Assembly: GCF_000012945.1 (NCBI RefSeq) | Contig: NC_007511.1 | Coordinates: 868,001 to 932,000 of the forward strand | DNA length: 64,000 nt | Origin: Burkholderia lata | GTDB lineage: Bacteria > Pseudomonadota > Gammaproteobacteria > Burkholderiales > Burkholderiaceae | Reading direction: 5' to 3' | Shown: positions 11,946-63,930 of the stretch, piece by piece | Layout of the letters: each line of letters begins with the position of its first letter | Position numbering within the stretch: the first letter of the stretch is position 1 | Made by a program: the position numbers and the translations under genes | The notes under the pieces: generated by a model | What the model was told of the DNA's origin: nothing | The model's input: only the letters and a program-made list of their open reading frames with translations | Database searches by the model: none

Positions 11946-13121
11946 ATGAACCCGACCGATCCCATCGCAGCGGTCACGCACCGCGATCCCTATCCCTACT
12001 ATGCGGCGCTCGTCGACGGGCCGCCGCTCGCGTTCGACGCCACGCTCGGCCTGTGGGTCGCGAGCCGCGCGGCCGCCGTGACGGCCGTGCTCGGCCATCC
12101 GGCCTGCCGGGTTCGCCCGCTGGACGCACCCGTGCCGCCCGCGTTGCGCGGCACGACGGCCGGCGCGTTGTTCGGCGAGCTGGTGCGCATGAACGACGGC
12201 GCGCTGCGGCACGACGTGCCGAAGCAGGCGCTGCGCACGGCGTTCGCGCCGATCGACACGGTCGCGTTGCGTGACCGTGTCACGCAGCTTGCCGCGCGGC
12301 GCTTGCCGACGCCGGGCGATGCCGGCGCGCTGAACGCATGGTGCATGACGGTGCCCGTTTGCGCGGTTGCCGATCTGCTCGGCTTCGACGACACGCAGCT
12401 CGACGATATTGCGGGCCTGGTCGTCGATTTCGTCGCCGCGCTGTCGCCGCTGTCGGATGCCGTGGCGCTGGCCCGCGCGAGCGACGCCGCGCGGCAACTG
12501 CTCGACCGGATGACGGCGCGCGTCGCGCAGTCGCATGCGCACGACGGCACGCTCGTCGCCGCGGTGCAGCAGGCGGCCCGCGTGTCGGGCTGGCAGGCGA
12601 GCGGCGGGCTGGTCGCGAATCTCGTCGGGCTGTTGTCGCAGACCTGCGAGGCGACTGCCGCGTGGCTCGGCAATACGCTGGTGGCGTGGAGCGGGGACGC
12701 GAGCGCGAGCGCTGCGCGTGTGGTTCCGGACGATGCTGCGCTCGACGCATTCGTTGCCGAAGTCGGGCGCTTCGATTCGCCGGTGCAGAACACGCGCCGC
12801 TTCGTCGCATCGCGCACGACGATCGAAGGCGTGACCGTCGAAGCCGGCGACGCGATTCTCGTCGTGCTTGCCGCCGCGAACCGCGACCCGGCCGTGCATC
12901 GCGATCCGCACCGGTTCATGCCTGGCCGCGCGGCCGGGCCGAATTTCGGCTTCGGCACGGGGCCGCATGGTTGCCCGGGCGAGCGGATCGCGCGGGCGGT
13001 GACGGCGGGGGCATTCGGGGCGTGGCTGCGTGCGGGCGGTGTGGCACCGCACGACGGGCTGGCGTGGGACTACCGCGCGTCGACCAACGTCAGGATGCCG
13101 AAGTTCGACGCGGCACGGTGA
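11946..13121 (+). CDS. Cytochrome P450
   Basis: A 391-residue soluble P450. The haem-binding loop reads FGFGTGPHGCPGERIA with Cys343 as the iron ligand, and E272-V-G-R275 is the K-helix ExxR. The I-helix region, LLSQTCEATAAWLGN (about 229-243), keeps the E/T pair but replaces the usual A/G-G-x-D/E-T-T pattern, a departure that can accompany unusual chemistry. No ferredoxin or ferredoxin reductase gene adjoins, so it must use partners encoded elsewhere. The ATG at 11946 starts MNPTDPIAAVTHRDPYPYYA, the standard bacterial P450 N-terminus. Substrate unknown. Confidence 0.9.
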   Translation: MNPTDPIAAVTHRDPYPYYAALVDGPPLAFDATLGLWVASRAAAVTAVLGHPACRVRPLDAPVPPALRGTTAGALFGELVRMNDGALRHDVPKQALRTAFAPIDTVALRDRVTQLAARRLPTPGDAGALNAWCMTVPVCAVADLLGFDDTQLDDIAGLVVDFVAALSPLSDAVALARASDAARQLLDRMTARVAQSHAHDGTLVAAVQQAARVSGWQASGGLVANLVGLLSQTCEATAAWLGNTLVAWSGDASASAARVVPDDAALDAFVAEVGRFDSPVQNTRRFVASRTTIEGVTVEAGDAILVVLAAANRDPAVHRDPHRFMPGRAAGPNFGFGTGPHGCPGERIARAVTAGAFGAWLRAGGVAPHDGLAWDYRASTNVRMPKFDAAR

Positions 13122-13136
13122 AGGGGAAAGAGGGAC

Positions 13137-13463
13137 TTAACGGCAGCCTTGCTTCTCCGCCCACTGCTCCTGGGCGGCGACGCGGCGTTGCACGCGTTCG
13201 ACGAGACCGGTCGAGAAGGTCCGCATGCTGATACCGCGGCGCTTCGCGAGGATCGTCTGCGCGACATCGGTGCGCGGGTTCGGCTGGCAGGCCCAGTACA
13301 GCGTCATCAGCCAGCCGATGCCGGTCCACCCGAACAGCGCGTTGAACATCGCGACCGTCAGCTTGTCGTGCCGGCCACGCCGGTCGGCAATGACCGCCGG
13401 CAGAAAATAGATCGCGATCGCGGCCACCGAACCGGCCACTTGAATCAGGACTGCGTTCTGCAT
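13137..13463 (-). CDS. Superinfection-immunity-type small membrane protein
   Basis: A 108-residue protein with two membrane helices (about 5-25 and 40-60). The second contains FNALFGWTGIGWLMTLYWAC, the hallmark of the Imm_superinfect family (Pfam PF14373), named after the phage T4 Imm protein. Chromosomal members are common and mostly unstudied; phage defence is not shown for this gene. The C-terminal 45 residues are basic and cytoplasmic. GGAG lies 8 bases before the ATG. It converges on the P450 gene with 15 bases between. Confidence 0.8.
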   Translation of the reverse strand: MQNAVLIQVAGSVAAIAIYFLPAVIADRRGRHDKLTVAMFNALFGWTGIGWLMTLYWACQPNPRTDVAQTILAKRRGISMRTFSTGLVERVQRRVAAQEQWAEKQGCR

Positions 13464-13564
13464 GTTGCTGCTCCATCCGAACTGCAATGGGACTGATTGT
13501 CGCGCTTTTTTCGTTTGCGTGCAGGGCGTGGACAGGCAATTGATTGTTGCGTTTTTAATGACGA

Positions 13565-13984
13565 TCAGCCGGCTTCGGCATCCGCCGGCTGCACTTCGTT
13601 GCTCAACGTGAAGCCCTCGTCGAGCCAGCCCGTCACGCCGCCGATCATCAGCTTGACCGGCCGGCCGAGACGCGCGAGCTGGATCGCCGCGCGCGCGGCG
13701 CCGTTGCAGTGCGGCCCCGCGCAATAGACGACGAACAGCGTGCTCGCCGGATAGCCGGCGAGCTTGCTCTCGATGATCTTGCGGCGCGGCAGGTTGCGCG
13801 CGCCGGGTACGTGGCCGACGGCGAACGAGTCGGGGCCGCGCACGTCGAGCAGCACAAAATCGGGCGCCCCCGATGCGAGCGCGTCGTGCACGTCCCAGCA
13901 ATCGGTCTCGAATCGCAGCGACGCCTCGAAATGCGCAAGGGCGGCGGGGCTGTCGGCGGCGGGCACGTCGGTGACGTAGGACAT
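13565..13984 (-). CDS. Rhodanese-domain sulfurtransferase
   Basis: A 139-residue single rhodanese domain. FVLLDVRGPDSFAVGHVPGA is the CH2A motif, and VVYCAGPHCNGAARAAIQLA contains the active-site loop with the catalytic Cys in Y-C-A-G-P-H-C. GGVTGWLDEGF closes the domain. It would move sulfane sulfur from thiosulfate or a persulfide to an acceptor. AGGAGA precedes the ATG by about 9 bases. It is divergent from an FtrA-type regulator across 111 bases, an arrangement that suggests direct control. Confidence 0.88.
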   Translation of the reverse strand: MSYVTDVPAADSPAALAHFEASLRFETDCWDVHDALASGAPDFVLLDVRGPDSFAVGHVPGARNLPRRKIIESKLAGYPASTLFVVYCAGPHCNGAARAAIQLARLGRPVKLMIGGVTGWLDEGFTLSNEVQPADAEAG

Positions 13985-53915: not shown

Positions 53916-54662
53916 TTATTGCGGTGCCGTGCACGCGTCGATCCCGCCCGCGATCGCGGTGGACAGCTTCTGGATCGTCTCGCGTCGCGCAAGCCGGGCT
54001 TCCTCATCCGGATTGACGATCACGCCGGCTTCGACGAGCACGGCCGGAATCGGTGCGGTGCGCAGCACGACGAGATCGTCGAAGCGGTGGATGCCGAGCT
54101 GCGGGTCGATCAGCGGGCGATTCTCGCCGCGGATCGGCTGTGCGTGATACAGCGACGGCCGCTCGCCGGACGCGACCAGCCGCTCGGCGATCGCCTTCGC
54201 GCAACGCAGGCTTTCCGCGTAGTGCGGATTGCGTTCCGACACGAACACCGAGAAGCCGCGGAATTCGCGCTGCCGGCCCGCGTCGATGAACTGCTGCTGC
54301 ATCGAGTCGTGATGGATCGACACGAACAGGTTCGCGTCGGGCGCCTGCGTCGAGCGCTGGTCGAGCGCGATCTCGCGGCCATCGGCGGACGTACGCAGCA
54401 CGCGGTCGCCATGCGCGCTGAGCTTTTCGGCGACGGCCGCGGACAGGTCGAGGTTGTACAGGTACTCGACGCGGCCGCTCGCCCCGGTGGAGCCCGGGTG
54501 AGCCGGCGTATGGCCGGTGTCGACGACGATGTAGCGCCCGGAGGCGGGTGCGGTGTCGGCCGCATGCAGCGCCAGCGGCGCGCCGAGCAGCGGGGCGCAG
54601 GCGAGCACGCGCGCGGCGGCGCGCACGAACGGGCGAAGGCGTCGGATGGTTCGGTTCGTCAT
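53916..54662 (-). CDS. N-acetylmuramoyl-L-alanine amidase (Amidase_3)
   Basis: A 248-residue exported zinc amidase that would cut the bond between MurNAc and the peptide stem. Zinc ligands fit H51 in DTGHT, E66 in GRVEYLYNLDL and H117 in VSIHHDS; E211 in LVEAGVIVNPDEE is the catalytic acid. DTGHT replaces the more usual DPGHGG. The Arg-rich MTNRTIRRLRPFVRAAARVL start and ALHAAD make a signal peptide. The start (54662) is uncertain, since no clear ribosome-binding site is seen for it or for 54683. It follows the amine oxidase gene by 124 bases on the same strand. Confidence 0.82.
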   Translation of the reverse strand: MTNRTIRRLRPFVRAAARVLACAPLLGAPLALHAADTAPASGRYIVVDTGHTPAHPGSTGASGRVEYLYNLDLSAAVAEKLSAHGDRVLRTSADGREIALDQRSTQAPDANLFVSIHHDSMQQQFIDAGRQREFRGFSVFVSERNPHYAESLRCAKAIAERLVASGERPSLYHAQPIRGENRPLIDPQLGIHRFDDLVVLRTAPIPAVLVEAGVIVNPDEEARLARRETIQKLSTAIAGGIDACTAPQ

Positions 54663-54786
54663 TGTTGTTGTCGAGGAGGGCATACGGCGCGTCGGACGGC
54701 GCGGCACCGTCGGCCTGCTCAATGCAGTCGGAATGTCGGGCGATTATAGCGGGTGGCGGTGGCGCCGCAATGACGGATGACGACCG

Positions 54787-56406
54787 TCAGGCCAGCACGC
54801 GCCGGGCGGCGAGCACGCCCCAGTACGACGCTTCCTCGAACAGCGACAACCCGGACAGGTCCGCGTGCGCGAACACAACCGGGCCGTCGGCATCGCGCAG
54901 TGCGAGCAGCCCCGGCCGGCTCAGGAAACCGACATCGGGCGTCGCCATTGCGTGGCCGCGCACGGTGATCTCGAGCGCCGTCGCGTGTTTCCACAGATTG
55001 CGCCCGTACACGGCCTGCAAGTCGATCGCCGCCTGCTCGCGCAACGCGTCGGGTTGGGCCTGCGCGAGCCAGCGGCGCGTGTCGTCCGGTGCTTGCGTGC
55101 TCAACGCCTGGTACGCGGAGAACACCGAGCGCGTCGGTGGCGACATGCGGATCAGCTGGTGCGTCGATACGACATAGCCGAGCCCCGCGCCGTCGTAGAC
55201 GACGTTGTCCCACGCGAGCGGCACGCCGGCTTCTTCGGCTGGCATGCCGTCGAGCAGGAAGTTGGACACGAGCCACGGCGCGCGCGGCGGCAGGTCGCGC
55301 GCGGGATCGAAGCCGTACGCGGCAAGCTGCGGAAACACGCGCGCCGCGACGAACAGCGGCATCGCGCACACGACGCGCCGCGCCTTCAGCATGAACGTCG
55401 ACAGCGCACCGTCGTTGCCGATGCGCGCACACAGCACGTCGACACCGCCCGCGCGTTCGGTCGCACGCACCGCGAAGCCGTCGCGCGACCATGCGTTCGA
55501 GCCGGTGCGCGTGGTGATCGAATCGGTGAGCTTCGTCACCATCGTGTGCAGCCCGTCGGGCCAGGTCAGCACCGCGCCGTCGCTCGCATCGCCCGCGTGG
55601 CCGCCGCGCGACGAGAAATAGTGCAGGCCGGCCCACGCGGACACGCGCTCGTACCCGGCGCCGTAGTCGTCGCGGCAGCAGTAATTCAGGTACCAGTGCA
55701 GCGCCTTCGCGGTGTAGCCCTCGTCGAGCAGCCATTGGCGGAACGAGCGCCGGTCCAGCGCGCGCCAGCGCGGGTCGCGTGACGATTCCGCGATCGGGAT
55801 GCAGAACACCTTGCGGCCATCGGCGCCGCGTGCGGTGCGCAGCCCGTCCGTGTACGCGAAGAAGCGTGCCTGTTGTGCGAGTTCGTCGGCGCCGAGGCCG
55901 GCCGTCGGCACGATGCCGTCCTGCCACTGTCCCGCGATGAAGAGCCGTTCGTCGGGTGCATGGACGAGCACGCGCTCGTCGTACACGGGGCGCGCGGAGA
56001 ACGGCGCCGATTCGATCACGCCGAGATCGGCGAGCATGTCGCGCAGATGCGTGGATTCGAGCGACGGCAGCGGCAGGTAGTGCGCGCCTTTCGGATAGCC
56101 GAGATCGCCGAAGCGGCCGCCGGCCGCATTGCCGCCGAATTCGGGGCCGGCGAGCACCGTGAAGCGCTTGTGTCCCGCGCGCGCCAGCTGCCATGCGCAC
56201 GACAGCCCGGCCGCGCCCGCGCCGAGGATCGCGATGTCGGTCTCGATCGTGCCGGACGGCGGCGGCAGCGTCGCATGGTCGCGCAGCGCATGGCCTTCGC
56301 GCATGCCCGGGTAACCGACATGCGGCGTCGTCTCGATCCAGCCGGTGCGCCCGCAGGCGGCGAGCGACGCGGCCGCCGACGCGACGAGGAACGTGCGGCG
56401 GTCCAT
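54787..56406 (-). CDS. Exported FAD-dependent amine oxidase-like lipoprotein
   Basis: A 539-residue flavoprotein. R3-R4 and AAC18 in MDRRTFLVASAAASLAACGR make a twin-arginine-type lipoprotein signal, so it is probably a membrane-anchored periplasmic protein. FAD binding is shown by IAILGAGAAGLSCAWQLA at about 58-75 and the distal C-terminal LSGLSLFEEASYWGVLAARR. It shares a one-base overlap (TGATG) with the aminopropyltransferase gene upstream and would be translated with it. Polyamine oxidation is a plausible guess from the neighbour, but unproven. Confidence 0.78.
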   Translation of the reverse strand: MDRRTFLVASAAASLAACGRTGWIETTPHVGYPGMREGHALRDHATLPPPSGTIETDIAILGAGAAGLSCAWQLARAGHKRFTVLAGPEFGGNAAGGRFGDLGYPKGAHYLPLPSLESTHLRDMLADLGVIESAPFSARPVYDERVLVHAPDERLFIAGQWQDGIVPTAGLGADELAQQARFFAYTDGLRTARGADGRKVFCIPIAESSRDPRWRALDRRSFRQWLLDEGYTAKALHWYLNYCCRDDYGAGYERVSAWAGLHYFSSRGGHAGDASDGAVLTWPDGLHTMVTKLTDSITTRTGSNAWSRDGFAVRATERAGGVDVLCARIGNDGALSTFMLKARRVVCAMPLFVAARVFPQLAAYGFDPARDLPPRAPWLVSNFLLDGMPAEEAGVPLAWDNVVYDGAGLGYVVSTHQLIRMSPPTRSVFSAYQALSTQAPDDTRRWLAQAQPDALREQAAIDLQAVYGRNLWKHATALEITVRGHAMATPDVGFLSRPGLLALRDADGPVVFAHADLSGLSLFEEASYWGVLAARRVLA

Positions 56407-57920
56407 CAGCGCAACACGTGTTTCCAGTCGTCGTCGAAGCGGCGCACGAGCGGCTGGTCGTTGAGTTCGTTCGGCGACATCGGCAGCGCCGGCATGTCGG
56501 CCGGGAAGTGGAACATCTCGGCGGCCGTTTGCGCATCGAGCCAGCGCGTGGGCACCGAGTAGTGCGTCGGCACCGTGAAGTCGCGGCGCTTGCCGGCGAT
56601 CACGAAGCCCCAGTCGCCGAACGACGGTACGTAGCAGTGGTACGGCCAGGTGTTGAGCCCGGCTTCGTGCAGCGTCGCGATGATGGTCCAGTACGCGTGC
56701 GGCGCGAAATACGGCGACGTCGACTGGATCACCGCGTAGCCGTTCTCCGACAGGTGGCGCGCAAGCAGCCGGAACACGGGCACCGAATACAGCCGGCCGA
56801 GCCCGAAGTTGGTCGGGTCGGGGAAGTCGACGACGATTGCGTCGTACACGTCGGCATTCGATTCGAGCCAGCGCACCGCGTCGTCGTTGATCACGTGCAC
56901 GCGCGGGTCTTTCAGCGAGCCCTGGTTCAGCTTGACGAGCGGCGCGGAGGTCGAGAACAGCTTCGTCATCGCGGGATCGAGATCGACGAGCGTGATCTGT
57001 TCGAGGTTGCGGTGCTTCAGCAGTTCGCGCACCGCGAGGCCGTCGCCGCCGCCGAGCACGAGCACGCGCTTCGCCCACGGCAGCGCGTCGATCGTCGGGT
57101 GGATCAGCGCCTCGTGATAGCGATGCTCGTCGCGCGACGAGAACTGCAGGTTGCCGTTCAGGTACAGGCGCATGTCGTCGTGCCACTGCGTGAGCACGAT
57201 CCGCTGGTACGGCGTCGTTTCCGAATAGATCGTCTCGTCGCCGTACACGCCGTGTTCGGCCCAGTGCGTGATGCGGTCCGACAGCGCGAAGCCGGCGACG
57301 AGCAGCCCGATCACGAGCGACGCGCGCATCAGCTTGCCGCGCACGTTGCGGATCTCGTCGCGGAACAGGTGTGTCGTCCAGAGCGCGACGAACGCGTTCA
57401 GGAGCCCGAACAGGAAGCTGGTGCGCAGCAGGCCGAGACGCGGTGCGAGCACGAGCGGGAAGATCAGCGACACGGCGAGCGAGCCGAGATAGTCGAAGGT
57501 CAGCACTTCGCTGACGGTATGGCGGAACGCCTGGCGCCGTTGCTGGAACGCGCGCATCACGAGCGGGATCTCCATCCCGATCAGCATGCCGAGCGCCAGC
57601 ACGAGCGCATAGAGCGCCGCGCGGAACGGCGCGGCGAGCCACGCGAACACCGCGAACAGCAGCGCGGCCGACACGCCGCCGAGCAGGCCGACGAGCAACT
57701 CGATGTCGACGAAGCGGTCGAGCACGTCGTCGTCCTCGACGAACTTCGCGAGCCACGAGCCGATCCCCATCGCAAACAGGTAGCAGCCGATCACCGACGA
57801 GAACTGCAGGATCGAATCGCCGAGCAGGTAGCTGGACAGCGCGCTGCTGATCAGTTCGTAGCCGAGCCCGCACGACGCGAGCACGAGAATCGACAGGACG
57901 AGCGCGCGCCTATGCAGCAT
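56406..57920 (-). CDS. Membrane-fused spermidine synthase-like aminopropyltransferase
   Basis: A 504-residue protein. Residues 1 to about 220 form about seven membrane helices; the rest is a spermidine/spermine synthase domain. Signs are LYLNGNLQFSSRDEHRYHEA (252-271), the AdoMet loop VLVLGGGDGLAVRELLKH (286-303), LVDLDP (311-316) and VVDFPDPTNFGLGRLYS (363-379) with catalytic D365. It should move aminopropyl groups from decarboxylated AdoMet to an amine at the inner membrane. A dedicated AdoMet decarboxylase is coded on the opposite strand in the same locus (61178-61561). Confidence 0.85.
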   Translation of the reverse strand: MLHRRALVLSILVLASCGLGYELISSALSSYLLGDSILQFSSVIGCYLFAMGIGSWLAKFVEDDDVLDRFVDIELLVGLLGGVSAALLFAVFAWLAAPFRAALYALVLALGMLIGMEIPLVMRAFQQRRQAFRHTVSEVLTFDYLGSLAVSLIFPLVLAPRLGLLRTSFLFGLLNAFVALWTTHLFRDEIRNVRGKLMRASLVIGLLVAGFALSDRITHWAEHGVYGDETIYSETTPYQRIVLTQWHDDMRLYLNGNLQFSSRDEHRYHEALIHPTIDALPWAKRVLVLGGGDGLAVRELLKHRNLEQITLVDLDPAMTKLFSTSAPLVKLNQGSLKDPRVHVINDDAVRWLESNADVYDAIVVDFPDPTNFGLGRLYSVPVFRLLARHLSENGYAVIQSTSPYFAPHAYWTIIATLHEAGLNTWPYHCYVPSFGDWGFVIAGKRRDFTVPTHYSVPTRWLDAQTAAEMFHFPADMPALPMSPNELNDQPLVRRFDDDWKHVLR

Positions 57921-57930
57921 GGTGCGTCCG

Positions 57931-57960
57931 TTGTGCAGCGGTCGGCAATGTGGATATACT
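57931..57960 (+). promoter_or_regulatory. Possible promoter of the DUF350-SpeD operon
   Basis: TATACT (57955-57960) is a good -10, with TTGTGC (57931-57936) 18 bases upstream as a weak -35. It points to the DUF350 gene 82 bases away, in the 121-base divergent spacer of the cluster. No operator symmetry is obvious nearby. Confidence 0.5.
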
Positions 57961-58041
57961 GGCGCGGAATTTTGTCTGCGGGCCCTGCGCGGGCCGGCCG
58001 GCGACGGGGCGGCGAACCGAGCACAAAATCCGAGGGAAAGA

Positions 58042-58428
58042 ATGAATAGTGCCTATCTCTATGCGGTTCATTTACTGTCGGCGTTCGTGCTGCTTCTTGT
58101 GTTCGCGGCAGTGTACCTGAAGGTCACCCCGTTCGACGAACTGGCACTGATCCGCGACGGCAACGCGGCCGCGACGCTGTCGTTCGGCGGCGCGCTGATC
58201 GGCTTCTGCCTGACGCTCGCGTCCAGCATCGCGCACAATTCCACGCTCGGCGAAGTCGTGATCTGGGCCGTCGGCGCGATGGCCGTGCAACTGATCACCT
58301 ATGCGGCGCTCACACGCCTGATGCCCGGCATGAATCATGCGATCGAGGATCGCAACGTCGCGATGGGCGGCCTGATGGGCACCGCGTCGCTCGTCGTCGG
58401 CATCATCAATGCCGCCTGCCTGACCTGA
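58042..58428 (+). CDS. DUF350 (YjfL-like) membrane protein
   Basis: A 128-residue protein of four membrane helices, with the DUF350 phrases ALIRDGNAAATLSFGGALIG, FCLTLASSIAHNSTLGEVVI and HAIEDRNVAMGGLMGTASLV. This family includes Escherichia coli YjfL, of unknown function. It is the first gene of the plus-strand operon, with GAGGGAAAGA before the ATG, and is followed by the SPFH gene 27 bases later. Confidence 0.88.
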   Translation: MNSAYLYAVHLLSAFVLLLVFAAVYLKVTPFDELALIRDGNAAATLSFGGALIGFCLTLASSIAHNSTLGEVVIWAVGAMAVQLITYAALTRLMPGMNHAIEDRNVAMGGLMGTASLVVGIINAACLT

Positions 58429-58455
58429 CGCGCCACGCGTTTCGAGGAGACCGAC

Positions 58456-59508
58456 ATGAGTCTGGGATCGTTTATCCGCAAGCAGTTCGTCGACGTCCTG
58501 CAATGGACCGAAGACACCGATGGCGTGCTGGCCTGGCGCTATCCGATGGAAGACATGGAAATCCGCTACGGCGGCAAGCTGACCGTGCGCGAGACGCAGG
58601 TCGCGATCTTCGTCAACGAAGGCAAGATCGCCGACATCTTCCAGGCAGGGTTGTACACGCTGGAGACGAACACGCTGCCGGTGCTCACGTACCTGAAGAA
58701 CTGGGACAAACTCTTTCAGTCGCCTTTCAAGTCGGACGTCTATTTCTTCAGCACGCGGCTGCAGCTCGGCCGGCGCTGGGGCACCGCGCAGCCGGTGACG
58801 ATCCGCGACCGCGAATTCGGCTTCGTGCAGGTGCGCGCGTTCGGCATCTACTCGTACCGGATCGTCGACGCGGGCGCGTTCTATCGCGAGGTCAGCGGCA
58901 CGCGCGCGCAGTACACGGTCGACGATCTCGAGCAGCAACTGCGCAACCTGGTCGTCACTGCGATGAGCACCACGTTCGGCTCGGCCGACGTGCCGTTCGT
59001 CGACATGGCCGCGAACCAGTCGTTGCTGTCGCAGCGCATCGCCGACGCGCTGGCGCCGGTGTTCACGCGCTACGGCCTGGCGCTCGACGCGTTCGCGGTG
59101 GAAAGCGTGTCGCTGCCGGCGGAGTTGCAGAAGGCGCTCGACCTGCGAATCGGCGCAGGGATGGCCGGCGACCTTGCACGCGCCACGCAATACCAGACTG
59201 CGCAGGCGATTCCGCTCGCCGCGCAGAACCCGGGCGGCATCGCCGGGATCGGCGCGGGGCTCGCCGCGGGGGCGGCGATCGGGCAGGCGATGGCTGGCCA
59301 GATGGCGGGCGCCGCGCAACCGGCGCCGGCTGCACCGCCCGCGCCCGCTGCGGCACCGGTGGCCGCCGCGCAGCCCGCCGCGCCGGCGGAAGGCACCGAT
59401 TACGTGCAACGGCTCGAACAGTTGAAGGCGCTGTTCGACAAGGGCCTCGTGACCGAAGACGAATATTCGCGCGCGAAGGCCGAGATCCTCGCGAAGCTCA
59501 CCCGGTAA
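58456..59508 (+). CDS. SPFH-domain protein with C-terminal SHOCT
   Basis: A 350-residue cytoplasmic or membrane-peripheral protein. Residues about 20-230 form an SPFH (band-7-like) fold of the YdjI/virion-core-type (MSLGSFIRKQFVDVLQWTED, ETQVAIFVNEGKIADIFQAG, GLALDAFAVESVSLPAELQK). A Gly/Ala/Pro linker (about 240-312) leads to a SHOCT motif (LEQLKALFDKGLVTEDEYSR, AKAEIL). SPFH proteins organise membrane microdomains. It starts 27 bases after DUF350 and 9 bases before the DUF4178 gene. Confidence 0.88.
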   Translation: MSLGSFIRKQFVDVLQWTEDTDGVLAWRYPMEDMEIRYGGKLTVRETQVAIFVNEGKIADIFQAGLYTLETNTLPVLTYLKNWDKLFQSPFKSDVYFFSTRLQLGRRWGTAQPVTIRDREFGFVQVRAFGIYSYRIVDAGAFYREVSGTRAQYTVDDLEQQLRNLVVTAMSTTFGSADVPFVDMAANQSLLSQRIADALAPVFTRYGLALDAFAVESVSLPAELQKALDLRIGAGMAGDLARATQYQTAQAIPLAAQNPGGIAGIGAGLAAGAAIGQAMAGQMAGAAQPAPAAPPAPAAAPVAAAQPAAPAEGTDYVQRLEQLKALFDKGLVTEDEYSRAKAEILAKLTR

Positions 59509-59517
59509 GCGTCACGC

Positions 59518-61035
59518 ATGTTCAGTACCTCGTGCCCCCAGTGCGGCGCGCCGGTCGAGTTTCGCTCGGCGGCGGCGGTGATGGCCGTCTGCGCGTTCTG
59601 CCGCAGCACGCTGCTCAAGCGTGGCACCGACGTCGAACGGATCGGCGAACTGGCCACGGTGCTCGACGATGCGTCGCCGATCCAGATTGGCACGGCCGGA
59701 CGCTACGACAAGCGTGCGTTCACGGTGCTCGGGCGCATCCAGATGACCTACGACGCCGGCGCTTGGAGCGAGTGGTATGTCGTGTTCGACGACGGCACGT
59801 TCGGCTGGCTGTCGGATGCGTCGGGCCAGTATGCAATCACCGTGCGCGAGCCCGACGATGCGTCCGGCGGCGCGTGGCCCGCGTTCGGCACGCTCGAACC
59901 GGGCATGCGGATCGACCACGGCGGCCGCGCGTTTCTCGTGTCGGACGTGCGCACCGCGCGCTGCACGGGCGGCGACGGCGAACTGCCGTTCCGCGTCGAT
60001 GCCGGCTGGGAGGCGCGCGTCGTCGACCTGCGCACCGGCAATGCGTTCGCGACCTACGACTATTCCGACGCCGATTCGAACGGCGGGAGCCCGGCCGTCT
60101 ATACGGGCGAAGCGCTCGAGTTCGATGCGCTCGCGTTCACCGGGCTGCGCGATACCGAAAACGATACGCGCGAGAAGCGCGGTGCGGAGATGGTGCCGTT
60201 CGCGTGCCCGAGCTGCGGCGCGCCGCTGTCGTATCTGCCGAACGTGGCCGACTACGTCGTGTGCGGCAGTTGCCATGCGGGCGTGCAGTGCACGGCCGAG
60301 CAGCAGACCGTGTTCGCGGCGCAGCGCAAGCTCGAGGCGGTGAAGGGGGCGCTGGAGCTCGGCGCGGTCGGCACGTTCGACGGTGTGAAGTACACGGTGA
60401 TCGGGATGATGCGTTGCCGCGTACCGGACGACGAGGAGACGTGGGACGAATACCTGCTGCTGAACCCGAAGCGCGGTTTCCTGTGGCTCGTGCAGAGCGA
60501 AGGGCGCTGGGAGCGCGTACAGGTGCTCGACCAATGGCCGACGATCGGCAGCGATGCCAACGTGACCGACGGCGACAAGACTTACCGCCTGCGCGAGGAA
60601 TACGACTCGGAGGTCGTCTACGTGGTCGGCGCGTTCAACTGGCGCGTGCAGGTCGGCGATCGCACGTCGATCATCGACTACGGCTGGCAGAAGGACAAGC
60701 TGACGCGCGAGCGCAGCGACGCGGAGATCGTCTGGTCGCGCGCGCGGCCGCTGTCGGGCAGCACGCTTGCCGAACGCTTCGGCACGCCGGCGCTCGCGAC
60801 GGCCGCGGCTGCGGCGGCAACGGGCGCCACTGCGTCGACGGGCCTGTTCGGCCGGAAAGGCCCGCACAGTTTCGCGCCGCTGCCGCTCGTGTTCAGCGCA
60901 TTGCTCGTGATCCTGAACATGGGCTCGCTGTTCTCGTTCAGCGGCCGCTCCGTCTACGTGCTGGTCGGCCTGCTGGTGCTGTGGCTGCCTGAATGGCTGT
61001 GGAAGAGCTTTGCGTCGGACGGGGGTAACGCGTGA
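59518..61035 (+). CDS. Double zinc-ribbon, double DUF4178 membrane protein
   Basis: A 505-residue protein built as two similar halves. Zinc ribbons are at C6-x-x-C9/C25-x-x-C28 and C230-x-x-C233/C249-x-x-C252, each followed by a DUF4178 beta-domain (about 45-210 and 280-415; YVVFDDGTFGWLSDASGQYA and YLLLNPKRGFLWLVQSEGRW correspond). Two membrane helices (about 455-472 and 477-495) close the protein, so the ribbons face the cytoplasm. Its stop overlaps the next start (GTGA). Confidence 0.87.
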   Translation: MFSTSCPQCGAPVEFRSAAAVMAVCAFCRSTLLKRGTDVERIGELATVLDDASPIQIGTAGRYDKRAFTVLGRIQMTYDAGAWSEWYVVFDDGTFGWLSDASGQYAITVREPDDASGGAWPAFGTLEPGMRIDHGGRAFLVSDVRTARCTGGDGELPFRVDAGWEARVVDLRTGNAFATYDYSDADSNGGSPAVYTGEALEFDALAFTGLRDTENDTREKRGAEMVPFACPSCGAPLSYLPNVADYVVCGSCHAGVQCTAEQQTVFAAQRKLEAVKGALELGAVGTFDGVKYTVIGMMRCRVPDDEETWDEYLLLNPKRGFLWLVQSEGRWERVQVLDQWPTIGSDANVTDGDKTYRLREEYDSEVVYVVGAFNWRVQVGDRTSIIDYGWQKDKLTRERSDAEIVWSRARPLSGSTLAERFGTPALATAAAAAATGATASTGLFGRKGPHSFAPLPLVFSALLVILNMGSLFSFSGRSVYVLVGLLVLWLPEWLWKSFASDGGNA

Positions 61036-61181
61036 TCCGGTACATCCTCTACGGCATCTACGGCCTGATCGTCGTCACGCTGTTCAGCTGCGCATCGATC
61101 GGCGGCGGCGGTTCAGGCGGCAGCGGCTGGGGCAGTTCATCGGCCCGCAGCGGCTACTCGTCGTACGGGTCGCACAAATGA
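61032..61181 (+). CDS. 49-residue Gly/Ser-rich membrane peptide
   Basis: This short gene starts with GTG overlapping the DUF4178 stop (GTGA) and ends with TGA overlapping the SpeD start (ATGA). It codes for VIRYILYGIYGLIVVTLFSC, a hydrophobic helix, then a Gly/Ser tail ASIGGGGSGGSGWGSSSARS and GYSSYGSHK. The Cys20 could be a lipobox-like site, but Phe at -2 is unusual. The double overlap shows strong translational coupling and argues that it is real. Function unknown. Confidence 0.75.
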   Translation: MIRYILYGIYGLIVVTLFSCASIGGGGSGGSGWGSSSARSGYSSYGSHK

Positions 61182-61561
61182 CCGCGCGCGACGAGATCGC
61201 ACCGCCGCGCGCGATGCTCGGTTCGCACGTGCTGGCGGACCTGGCCGGTATCGACGCGGCGTTGCTGCGCGATGCCGCTCGGCTCGAGTCGATCCTTACC
61301 GAAGCGGCGCAGCAGGCGGGCGCACGCGTGATCGGCGCGCATTTCCATCATTTCGGCGGCGAGCATGGCGTGACGGGTGTCGTGCTGCTCGCCGAATCGC
61401 ACATCACGATTCACACGTGGCCGGAGCATCGCTTTGCGGCCGTCGACGCCTTCATGTGCGGCGCGGCTCGTGCGGCCGATGCGGTCGATGCGATCGCCAT
61501 TGCGCTCGGCACGCAGGCGCAAGTCCGGCAGCAGGTTGCGCGCGGCGGCGCGCCGACGTGA
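61178..61561 (+). CDS. speD: S-adenosylmethionine decarboxylase proenzyme (pyruvoyl type)
   Basis: A 127-residue AdoMet decarboxylase of the small bacterial/archaeal class. It self-cleaves before Ser74 in LLAESHITIHTWPEHRFAAV to make the pyruvoyl cofactor; H79 and C94 (FMCGAA) match His68 and Cys83 of the Thermotoga enzyme at constant spacing. It makes the aminopropyl donor for the synthase coded at 56406-57920. ATGA overlap with the small upstream gene couples them. An AHFHHFGGEHGVTGVVLLAE stretch precedes the active site. Confidence 0.93.
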   Translation: MTARDEIAPPRAMLGSHVLADLAGIDAALLRDAARLESILTEAAQQAGARVIGAHFHHFGGEHGVTGVVLLAESHITIHTWPEHRFAAVDAFMCGAARAADAVDAIAIALGTQAQVRQQVARGGAPT

Positions 61562-61587
61562 GCGGGCGATCCACTTCCTTTACCGAT

Positions 61588-61974
61588 ATGCGTAACAGAA
61601 TCCGGTTCGCCGCGTTGCTCGGCTGGGTGCTGCTCGTCGGCAACGCTGCCGCCGATGTGCCGCCGAAGCCGCCCGGGCCGGTCGTGATGGTTCACTTCGA
61701 CTACGACGAGAAGGACCAGGCACGCCTTCACGCGCTGGAGCAAAGGCTGGATCGTGCGGTTAAGCAGGCAGGGGCCGGCGAGCTGGGTGAAACCGAACTG
61801 CATCGCGACGGCAACGACGGTTATCTGTACCTGTATGGCGCCAGCGCCGACCGGTTATATGCGGTGGCGCGCCCGATCCTGAAATCGTCAGGATGGCTGA
61901 CCGGTATGGCGGTTACGTTGCGCCGCGATGCGGGTGCGGAGACGTTCCCGTTGCGCGGGGACGGTGCGCGTTAG
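61588..61974 (+). CDS. Secreted hypothetical protein at the end of the SpeD operon
   Basis: A 128-residue protein with signal peptide MRNRIRFAALLGWVLLVGNA then AADVPP, and a small alpha/beta domain (VVMVHFDYDEKDQARLHALE, QRLDRAVKQAGAGELGETEL, YLYGASADRLYAVARPILKS). It starts 26 bases after speD and is probably the last gene of the operon. No family known to me, and no clear ribosome-binding site. Function unknown; a periplasmic role fits the cluster. Confidence 0.65.
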   Translation: MRNRIRFAALLGWVLLVGNAAADVPPKPPGPVVMVHFDYDEKDQARLHALEQRLDRAVKQAGAGELGETELHRDGNDGYLYLYGASADRLYAVARPILKSSGWLTGMAVTLRRDAGAETFPLRGDGAR

Positions 61975-62132: not shown

Positions 62133-62921
62133 CTAACGGTCGAACCGGAACGTCGAAACGCTGTGCATCGTCGCGTCGTCGGTGCCGACGATGCCCTGCG
62201 TATTCGCGACGGCCGCCCGCTTCCCGTTGCCCAGCACGGCCCAATAGCATTCGCCGGCCGACGAGTGGAAGCCGGTTTCCGGATCGCTGATGCCACATAT
62301 GACCGTCGCTTGCATGCCGCGCCAGCCAGCACCGGAAAAACGTTCAACTTCCTGTGCGATGCCGGGGCCAAACGTGGTTGTCCACTTGCCGTCGTCCTGC
62401 TGCTCGAATCCCGCTTTCTGTTTCGCGATTGTCTCCAGCGCGCCGTCGACGATCTCGAACGCGATGAAGTAGTTGCTGTAGGTCATGTTGCGGCCGACGA
62501 TCGCGATGCAGCGGTCGCCGCCGATTTCGGGGCAGGGCTTCTTCACCTGCCGGTTCGCGAGGTACTCGAACGAGATGCCGAGCACCGGGTCGCGATAGGT
62601 TTTCCAGCCGGCGTGCTTGACCTGCTTCAGCGCCGCAGTCCTGTCGCGATAGGCCGTTGCGACGCACGCCGCGTCGCCGCACGCATCGCGCTGCTTGAGC
62701 CATGTGCGTTGCGACTGGATGACCGCTTGCTGGTCGGCGGCGATGCCGACTGCATCGTAGTACGCGCTCGACAATGCGCTGTCCGCTGACACGAGGGCCT
62801 TGTCGCTGCATATCAGGCGGTCGGTGCGTGTCTTTGCACGCGAGCAGTCGATGCTGTCGGCGTGGGCCGACAGCGAGAGGCCGATGGCGGCCAGCGTGAG
62901 ACCAAGGCGAATACCGAACAC
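62133..62921 (-). CDS. Secreted LprI-domain protein with unknown C-terminal domain
   Basis: A 262-residue protein that starts at GTG 62921 with GAGGAG upstream. A signal peptide (VFGIRLGLTLAAIGLSLSAH) precedes the LprI N-terminal domain (DCSRAKTRTDRLICSDKALV, LSSAYYDAVGIAADQQAVIQ, TWLKQRDACGDAACVATAYR). The C-terminal 150 residues are of unknown fold, with GISFEYLANRQVKKPCPEIG and WYAVLGNG-like strands. It may bind lysozyme or cell-wall ligands (inference). Related in its first domain to the protein at 53472. Confidence 0.75.
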   Translation of the reverse strand: MFGIRLGLTLAAIGLSLSAHADSIDCSRAKTRTDRLICSDKALVSADSALSSAYYDAVGIAADQQAVIQSQRTWLKQRDACGDAACVATAYRDRTAALKQVKHAGWKTYRDPVLGISFEYLANRQVKKPCPEIGGDRCIAIVGRNMTYSNYFIAFEIVDGALETIAKQKAGFEQQDDGKWTTTFGPGIAQEVERFSGAGWRGMQATVICGISDPETGFHSSAGECYWAVLGNGKRAAVANTQGIVGTDDATMHSVSTFRFDR

Positions 62922-63042: not shown

Positions 63043-63930
63043 TCAGCGATTGATCTGGTCCGCCGAAATCAGCTCGGCCACCAGCACCGGAGCCGGCCCC
63101 TGCAGGTAGTACTCGTGCTCGAGCGGTTCGCGCAGCTTCATGAACGTTTCCGCGCCGATCTGCATCGTTTCGCCAGCGTGCATGCGCGCGCCGCTTTCCA
63201 GCAGGTAATGCATCACGTTGTTGAAGATGCCCGAGTAGCGTTCGCCTTCATGATGACCTTCCGCGAGCGCGGCGAAATCGGGCAGGCCGAACACGTCGGC
63301 GCCATAGGTGCGCATCCACACACCGTTGACGCCTTCGACTTCGTATTTCACGAAGCCGCAGAAGAACAGGTTCAGCGGGATATCCCGCAGCACTTCGAGG
63401 CTTTCCTCGCCGAGCTCCTTCGCATTGAAGACGCCGGCCGGCAGCGACGTGTGCGCGTGCTCGTTCAGCACCGCGAGTCCGTTCTGTTCGGCCAACGCGC
63501 CGGCGACGGCCACCAGCGCGACATACTGGTCGAGCGGATTCGCTTCGTGTCCGGCGTAGTAGAGGATCACGTGGCTGCTGCTCGCGCGCACCTGCTGCTT
63601 CAGGTCCTGCCCGTAGTGGGCCGGTGCGACACACGTTTCCAGTGCCTCGGACGGATAGGGCGCATCGAAGCCGACGAGCCGGACGACGTGGTTGCCCCAG
63701 CCGGCGAGCCCGAATACCTGCTCCAGCGTCGGCTCGGTTTCGACGCGCGCCTGCTTCATGCTCGGGTGGTACGCGCGCAGCGCGGCCGTCAGTGCGGCGA
63801 TGTCGACCTGCAGCGGGCCGTCGAAGACGACCGTCACGCTCAGCGGATTCTCGACGTCGGGTGCCGCGACCAGCGCGACGGGGTTTTCGGGTTCGTCTTT
63901 GCGGCCAAAGAATCGGGATATCAGGCTCAT
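63043..63930 (-). CDS. DUF4261-domain protein
   Basis: A 295-residue cytoplasmic protein. The start MSLISRFFGRKDEPENPVAL is followed by two alpha/beta halves; the C-terminal one (SGIFNNVMHYLLESGARMHA, GETMQIGAETFMKLREP) matches DUF4261, whose members appear near contact-dependent or stress loci but are uncharacterised. It lies 121 bases upstream of the LprI-domain gene on the same strand. No signal peptide or membrane helix. Confidence 0.7.
   Translation of the reverse strand: MSLISRFFGRKDEPENPVALVAAPDVENPLSVTVVFDGPLQVDIAALTAALRAYHPSMKQARVETEPTLEQVFGLAGWGNHVVRLVGFDAPYPSEALETCVAPAHYGQDLKQQVRASSSHVILYYAGHEANPLDQYVALVAVAGALAEQNGLAVLNEHAHTSLPAGVFNAKELGEESLEVLRDIPLNLFFCGFVKYEVEGVNGVWMRTYGADVFGLPDFAALAEGHHEGERYSGIFNNVMHYLLESGARMHAGETMQIGAETFMKLREPLEHEYYLQGPAPVLVAELISADQINR

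Follow-up and report, generated by a model that had tools for sequence, protein, structure and literature searches.

Thousands of class 1b S-adenosylmethionine (AdoMet) decarboxylase (AdoMetDC) genes are said to sit with DUF350 genes and with genes for fusions of a major facilitator superfamily (MFS) domain to a spermidine synthase (SpdSyn), according to Li et al. 2019 (Biochem J 476:2579). The fusion reportedly does not replace spermidine synthase, and a non-putrescine acceptor was reportedly suggested, with none named. A cluster built around a fusion of this enzyme family lies in Burkholderia lata, at positions 54787 to 61974 of a stretch of 64,000 nucleotides that is called the window here (contig NC_007511.1, positions 868,001 to 932,000, from a three-contig genome of 8.68 Mb). 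Its fusion of a seven-transmembrane (7-TM) domain to a SpeE aminopropyltransferase domain, TM-SpeE, has in common with those MFS-SpdSyn fusions the enzyme family and the AdoMetDC linkage; a specific acceptor residue is proposed only here. In the sections of Ravi et al. 2024 (PMC11237479) that deal with them, 7TM-SpdSyn/DUF350/DUF4178 operons were already described, along with a variant in which a band-7 protein with SHOCT stands in place of the PspA dyad and an AdoMet decarboxylase and a polyamine oxidase are added. The cluster in the window has the same gene families, and it shows what defines the published TM-SpdSyn family, namely the N-terminal 7TM fusion and the joint presence of DUF350, band-7-SHOCT, DUF4178, AdoMet decarboxylase and polyamine oxidase. 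Bacterial fusions of the TM-SpeE type are reported to be uninvolved in spermidine or spermine synthesis, in a passage of PMC12803844 that cites Li 2019, even though named family members are labelled spermidine synthase or polyamine aminopropyltransferase. Given these operons and these reports, the cluster itself is already known, and the new point is a proposed acceptor. The word lysine has 0 occurrences in the main text of Ravi et al.; lysine-ended tails, a catalytic domain predicted to be extracytoplasmic and a micro-gene are the additions made here, and no report of a C-terminal lysine as the target was recognised in those portions of the literature that were searched.

What is new is a rule that a tail protein encoded near TM-SpeE nearly always ends in lysine (K-tails), which suggests a target for TM-SpeE: this terminal residue, outside the inner membrane. 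For the census, 165 TM-SpeE loci were reduced to 85 by dereplication at 80% protein identity, and short loci L083-L111, L001, L112, L130, the E. coli loci and L159 (a fragment match) were left out before the count. Genes were called by a simple script, and tails were picked by a blind rule that requires an N-terminal hydrophobic segment and at least 8/15 Gly, Ser or Arg and takes no account of the final two residues. It picks 93 tail open reading frames (ORFs) up to 6.5 kb from TM-SpeE, and 61 of them, across 60 of the 85 loci, end in K; farther away, 1/12 does so. The 32 tails of this list without K are judged by composition to be mostly wrong-frame ORFs of GC-rich DNA. With a stricter blind rule and a simple gene caller, a K end is found in 34/38 tails near TM-SpeE and in 42/566 of all distant ORFs. 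The automatic rule run over all 165 loci gives a K-tail in 126. In total, a K-ended tail is present at 78 of the 85 dereplicated loci, where its carrier is a mini-protein, a lipoprotein or a DUF4178 fusion.

Eighteen of these K-tails go beyond the automatic list (five DUF4178 fusions, L183, L134, L147, six others, L154, L180, L184 and L146), and that of L183 also passes the stricter blind rule. L154, on a plasmid of Gemmatimonadota, is the sole locus covered from another phylum, and its tail ends ...RHGK. L146 served as a prediction: its TM-SpeE is isolated, and a K-tail was expected at the DUF4178 locus of the same genome (G476), about 19 kb off. There, an ORF ending ...RTYHK, with an undefined start, stops 146 bases past the DUF4178 stop. 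The tails are carried by unrelated proteins. Once the last 40 residues are removed, the 23 K-tailed proteins of at least 150 amino acids form three groups with no relation to one another (19, 3 and 1 members); besides these there are several small TM types, and in loci such as L114, L163, L164 and L179 a His-Lys (HK) tail is fused to DUF4178 itself.

A different end is found beside a different polyamine enzyme. The YgiB-YgiC and YjfM-YjfC pairs of E. coli, which Pederick et al. 2023 address, likewise place a Gly/Ser/Arg-rich tail protein (DUF1190) beside a polyamine enzyme, and the yjf operon also has a DUF350 gene (yjfL). They differ in that the tail has a Gly-Gly (GG) end, ...ARGHWGG in YjfM, and the enzyme is an ATP-grasp amide ligase (both YjfC and YgiC are annotated in RefSeq as peptide--spermidine ligases), whereas the cluster described here combines a K end with an aminopropyltransferase. 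Because DUF1190 occurs in only 3/185 genomes, PF03738 was added as a contrast family, and the contrast set comprises 33 loci, 30 found through ATP-grasp and 3 through DUF1190, together with two from E. coli; most are of about 4 kb, and they were not dereplicated. At the ligase loci (among them L153:7388-8026, L161 and L202-L234) the same blind rule picks 25 tails; 20 of the 25 end in GG and none in K. Among ligase loci where the rule has no match, the adjacent gene is seen by eye to end in GG in L202, L208, L214, L221, L225, L226 and E. coli ygiB, and no tail is seen by eye in L220, L230 and L232. The Gly-Gly end beside the ligase is likely a carboxylate acceptor. At 20 soluble-SpeE loci, chosen by hand from a list, the rule picks nine tails, with a K end in 0/9. 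With GG beside the ligase and K beside the aminopropyltransferase, the last residue therefore follows the chemistry of the partner enzyme, carboxylate in the one case and amine in the other. PF03738 (ATP-grasp GSP_synth) has no match in the B. lata genome and the tail in the window ends in HK, not GG, so the cluster is not a YgiC/YjfC system.

In the window, the tail is a mini-protein of 49 amino acids, whose single Lys is its last residue (...SYGSHK). By protein search, its micro-gene is found at 25 of 80 named loci, these being the best 80 named loci from the TM-SpeE protein scan, and it is lost beyond Paraburkholderia. The same slot at most named loci holds an ORF of like build, which begins with a hydrophobic segment, runs on into a tail rich in Gly, Ser, Trp and Tyr, and closes with His-Lys. 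A slot rule that again ignores the last two residues picked 84 distinct ORFs, 14 loci giving no candidate, and 76 of the 84 end in K. Seven of the eight others belong to loci whose tail is part of the DUF4178 protein, and the eighth, in L171, was picked wrongly, the census having found the K-tail of that locus. The final lysine is written AAA in 40 of the slot ORFs and AAG in 36, and the penultimate codon is CAC in 55 and CAT in 16; since K and H each use both codons, selection acts on the protein end. Rather than an accessory, the micro-gene is probably central to how the system works. It overlaps the upstream DUF4178 gene in GTGA and the downstream speD in ATGA, and because of these stop/start overlaps the three genes look translationally coupled.

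Four small K-tailed TM proteins, in L156, L169, L173 and L176, are encoded by a gene that abuts or slightly overlaps that of TM-SpeE. They have in common an aromatic and Gly-rich build, with GYGY or GWGY and FYW or WYW.

Averaged over 86 sequences of the family, the hydropathy of TM-SpeE shows seven hydrophobic segments, and its AlphaFold model, with a mean predicted local distance difference test (pLDDT) score of 88.4, has seven helices before the SpeE fold. The positively charged residues (K+R) average 8.85 in loops 2+4+6 versus 2.07 in loops 1+3+5, in the same direction in 86/86 sequences; from this pattern, all 86 are predicted to have a cytoplasmic N-terminus and a catalytic domain beyond the inner membrane. 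Buried acidic residues are kept in the membrane domain (E117 and D143 in 86/86, E22 in 83/86). The SpeE fold and its catalytic carboxylates are present, with catalytic residues invariant in 86/86, and the nearest solved fold to the SpeE domain is the polyamine aminopropyltransferase 1uir of T. thermophilus. For the 7-TM domain, the Foldseek and VIA matches listed are SpeE or methyltransferase, which is no argument for a new fold. Two signs place the tails outside as well: 16 of the 23 longer K-tailed proteins have a lipobox-like motif as judged by a crude pattern, and in 9/10 DUF4178 fusions an odd number of TM peaks, counted by eye, separates DUF4178 from its HK tail near the C-terminus, L185 being ambiguous. 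The catalytic domain, the tails and the oxidase of the cluster, which is of the twin-arginine translocation (Tat) type, are all predicted to lie on the same side, outside the inner membrane.

The oxidase N-terminus, MDRRTFLVASAAASLAACG, is Tat-like with a possible lipobox, and its RR is invariant in 30 aligned sequences, partly by construction because starts were chosen near an RR. The protein has a monoamine oxidase/polyamine-oxidase fold with the N-terminal flavin adenine dinucleotide (FAD) site present. In its AlphaFold model (pLDDT 90.3), the nearest structure is putrescine oxidase (2yg3/2yg7), and the spermidine dehydrogenase SpdH (7d9x) also matches; a PDB sequence search with the oxidase gave two weak matches only. 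SpeD, the AdoMet decarboxylase of the cluster, keeps the ESHITIHTWPE...C motif with the processing Ser and the catalytic His and Cys, as aligned to 2iii and 1tlu, and it is the only PF02675 match in the whole genome. In the part of PMC10407285 that treats the neofunctionalised decarboxylases SpeDC/SpeDA, the ornithine decarboxylase (ODC) group is marked by four diagnostic residues, Gln, Thr, Phe and Tyr; the SpeD sequence here reads like 1tlu/2iii. The same genome also encodes, on contig C2 (L130:5130-6089), a soluble polyamine aminopropyltransferase of the PRK00811 type (319.8 bits).

Taken together, we lean, with moderate confidence and from sequence, towards the reading that TM-SpeE acts as an extracytoplasmic protein aminopropyltransferase on the C-terminal lysine of a co-encoded tail protein. 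In short, SpeD would make decarboxylated AdoMet (dcAdoMet) in the cytoplasm, as its family and motifs indicate. The dcAdoMet would then cross to the periplasmic side of the inner membrane, in the simplest case via the 7-TM half of TM-SpeE with its invariant buried acidic residues, or else by way of DUF350. There, the SpeE domain would move the aminopropyl group onto the side-chain amine of the terminal lysine, as the K-tail rule and the intact active site suggest. The product would be N-epsilon-(3-aminopropyl)lysine, a spermidine-like cap because the (CH2)4-NH2 arm of lysine mimics putrescine. In clusters that have the oxidase, this enzyme may oxidise or remove the cap. The SPFH and zinc-ribbon/DUF4178 proteins may form a scaffold on the cytoplasmic side, by analogy with PspA contexts. 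In the formation of deoxyhypusine and hypusine, an aminobutyl group is moved from spermidine onto an internal lysine by a nicotinamide adenine dinucleotide (NAD) enzyme in the cytoplasm. The proposed reaction is alike in putting a polyamine-derived alkyl group on a lysine side chain; it differs in that an aminopropyl group would come from dcAdoMet and go to a C-terminal lysine outside the membrane.

The lysine rule points to one residue in one small co-encoded protein. If the reading is right, it would represent a new protein modification and would place aminopropyl chemistry outside the cytoplasm; it would also be, to our knowledge, the first dcAdoMet export known. A broader and more tentative idea, plausible rather than probable, is that two convergent machines cap exported flexible tails with polyamine. 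One would be a ligase that acts on the carboxylate of a Gly-Gly end, the other an outward 7TM-aminopropyltransferase that acts on the side chain of a Lys, with dcAdoMet exported via the membrane domain and with a cap that the Tat-type oxidase could erase or oxidise. Both machines would then give polyamine-tipped, envelope-anchored tails, spermidine on a GG tail being a similar tip. Polyamine-capped envelope tails would be a common logic for contexts with DUF350, SPFH, PspA and YjfC/YgiC, for which comparative surveys gave no explanation.

Several points weigh against a lysine-directed TM-SpeE. Gene linkage, the lysine rule with its controls, the predicted topology and the intact active sites are computational results; the modification, the passage of dcAdoMet and the role of a capped tail are predictions. 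The topology rests on charge counts. We know of no precedent for the export of dcAdoMet, which a reaction outside the membrane needs. With a second, soluble SpeE in the genome, the SpeD of the cluster may also serve ordinary spermidine synthesis. In the census, exported tails far from TM-SpeE that pass the stricter rule are also K-ended in 2 of only 5 cases. Twelve of the 18 added K-tails were found by looking for K ends and are thus no blind evidence, and the five DUF4178 fusions come from the blind class of non-exported tails, in which a K end occurs in only 5/43. No K-tail was found at 7 of the 85 loci: L128, L131 and L170 are contig ends and L127 and L188 have a TM-SpeE without the cluster, whereas L126 and L190 are explained in neither way. 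Outside the 85, L139 has the cluster and no K-tail was found there, its DUF4178 protein (12289-13848) having a Gly/Asp-rich acidic end, ...GGGGD; L077 and L166 gave no clear K-tail call. The GG rule has its own exception in L228, which ends GWGS. Finally, a C-terminal lysine on an exported lipoprotein fits attachment to peptidoglycan, as in Lpp, as well.

The best of the alternatives, although an unlikely one, is that TM-SpeE makes a local polyamine or an aminopropylated lipid at the membrane and that the K-tailed protein only binds or senses the product. The conserved SpeE fold and active site, closest to 1uir, would suit such a role, as would the resemblance of the oxidase to putrescine oxidase and spermidine dehydrogenase. 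However, relatives of TM-SpeE are reported, in the passage of PMC12803844 already mentioned, to have no part in spermidine or spermine synthesis, and a small-molecule product leaves unexplained why a lysine has come to stand last in tails of unrelated proteins and why the end switches between GG and K with the chemistry of the enzyme. The first-pass annotation of the window had likewise proposed local polyamine production at the inner membrane. The tie to the membrane stands, but the evidence favours aminopropylation of the co-encoded tail, by a catalytic domain predicted to be outside and not at the cytoplasmic face.

Braun's lipoprotein, Lpp, is exported and is attached to the cell wall by way of its C-terminal lysine. 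The K-tailed proteins would be like it where they are exported lipoproteins with a functional C-terminal lysine; Lpp differs in being joined to peptidoglycan and in having no gene linkage to an aminopropyltransferase. It could be supposed that the K-tails are likewise attached to peptidoglycan by L,D-transpeptidases and that TM-SpeE makes something else, the more so as many K-tailed proteins look like lipoproteins (the 16/23 with a lipobox-like motif) and a cell-wall amidase gene (53916-54722) follows the oxidase gene in Burkholderia. This, a main rival, is also unlikely, given that the lysine tracks the aminopropyltransferase, being the end of no tail picked at the ligase and soluble-SpeE loci, that GG takes its place beside a ligase, and that the amidase is at only 22 of 81 loci searched.

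A housekeeping role, in which SpeD and TM-SpeE make bulk spermidine and their neighbours are incidental, would account for SpeD being the sole AdoMet decarboxylase found in the genome. It is very unlikely in view of the separate soluble SpeE, the predicted position of the SpeE domain outside the membrane, and the occurrence of TM-SpeE in 24/150 Burkholderiales genomes with DUF4178 in exactly those 24 and no others; relatives are also reported not to make spermidine, in the same passage of PMC12803844. It is likewise very unlikely that the exported oxidase, with its amine-oxidase fold and its presence at 79/80 named loci (tblastn), instead turns the C-terminal lysine into an aldehyde for cross-linking in the manner of a lysyl oxidase while TM-SpeE has a separate job, since a family hidden Markov model (HMM), which may miss divergent oxidases, finds an oxidase near TM-SpeE at only 37/85 dereplicated loci. 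By the same HMM, 41 of the 78 K-tail loci are without the oxidase; the lysine is therefore independent of it, and the oxidase was rejected as the driver of the lysine rule.

Whichever residue TM-SpeE may modify, its gene belongs to a set that is kept together. The first-pass annotation had put forward conserved co-occurrence across genomes as a check, and such co-occurrence is found well beyond Burkholderia: oxidase, TM-SpeE, DUF350, SPFH and DUF4178 are all present at 75/80 named loci (tblastn), and with speD added at 68/80. The HMM version of the two counts is 76 and 69 and includes one wrong-frame match. Of the five loci without the full five genes (L041, L063, L066, L076 and L077), four sit on short pieces of contig. 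Among named organisms, the TM-SpeE protein has its nearest relatives in Burkholderia spp., for example B. aenigmatica, B. cepacia and B. lata, and the gene order is shared with Achromobacter, Cupriavidus, Lysobacter (with speD not nearby), Zoogloea and Herbaspirillum. In the phylum, TM-SpeE is found in 44/398 genomes (E <= 1e-45), and the family has at least 8000 protein matches, some of them perhaps not fusions. The gene linkage is far above chance, and the set is a conserved functional unit. A secreted protein without known family (61588-61974), which the first-pass annotation had counted in the set, was rejected as a member and is a lineage-specific neighbour: tblastn finds it at 11/80 named loci, all Burkholderia, whereas the other genes are kept to Lysobacter, Zoogloea and beyond. 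On the Alteromonas plasmid pAMCP48-600 (L158), TM-SpeE, speD, DUF4178, a K-tailed lipoprotein and DUF350 occur together.

The gene inventory given earlier for the region holds up, with every named gene present and small corrections only, and the features are collected in the table below. Oxidase and TM-SpeE overlap by one base on the minus strand, as had been noted (base 56406), and the plus-strand run of DUF350, SPFH-SHOCT, DUF4178, 49-residue ORF and AdoMet decarboxylase stands without its last, secreted member. It is also borne out that the set is tied to membrane proteins and supplies its own aminopropyl donor enzyme, and the suggested relation to PspA/YjfJ-type systems agrees with the contexts treated in the cited sections of Ravi et al. 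(PMC11237479). No match to the PspA family itself was found among the cluster proteins searched against Pfam, so the cluster is not a canonical PspA-type operon. The DUF350 start is corrected to a likely 58042, an alternative ATG at 57919 running into the divergent gene. In the SPFH protein, the linker before SHOCT, where the published band-7 variant has 2TM, is Gly/Ala-rich.

Table. Genes, domains and sites of the TM-SpeE cluster, in window coordinates (aa, amino acids).
Feature	Position	Strand	Basis and remarks
FAD amine oxidase, 539 aa	54787-56406	minus	PF01593/PF13450; Tat-type RR signal and lipobox-like LAAC; predicted exported
TM-SpeE (7TM-spermidine synthase fusion)	56406-57920	minus	PF01564; NCBIfam NF002956, 705.9 bits
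SpeE aminopropyltransferase domain of TM-SpeE, C-terminal, residues 216-504	56409..57275	minus	predicted extracytoplasmic
7-TM domain of TM-SpeE, N-terminal, residues 1-215	57276..57920	minus	embedded acidic E22, E117, D143
DUF350 (YjfL-type) membrane protein, 128 aa	58042..58428	plus	PF03994, E 5.7e-33; identity of 44-100% across the named loci
SPFH (Band_7_1) protein with C-terminal SHOCT	58456-59508	plus	PF13421, 251.7 bits; PF09851, 33 bits
Zinc-ribbon/DUF4178 protein, 505 aa, with DUF4178 twice and a 2-TM hairpin at the C-terminus	59518-61035	plus	PF13785 in 2 stretches; ortholog hydropathy
K-tail mini-protein, 49 aa	61032-61181	plus	N-terminal TM segment, Gly/Ser tail, Ser-His-Lys end
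Codons CAC AAA for the C-terminal His-Lys; proposed aminopropyl-acceptor lysine	61173..61178	plus	C-terminus kept among slot ORFs
AdoMet decarboxylase speD, class 1b, 127 aa	61178-61561	plus	TIGR03330, 122.8 bits, above its cut-off

The oxidase gene is directly followed on its strand by an Amidase_3 gene for an N-acetylmuramoyl-L-alanine amidase (53916-54722, minus), which was rejected as a core part, the 22/81 loci that have it being all Burkholderia. On the other side, the cluster is adjoined by a gene for a protein with an LprI (lysozyme inhibitor) domain (62133-62921, minus), and a DUF4261 protein is encoded nearby (63043-63930, minus).

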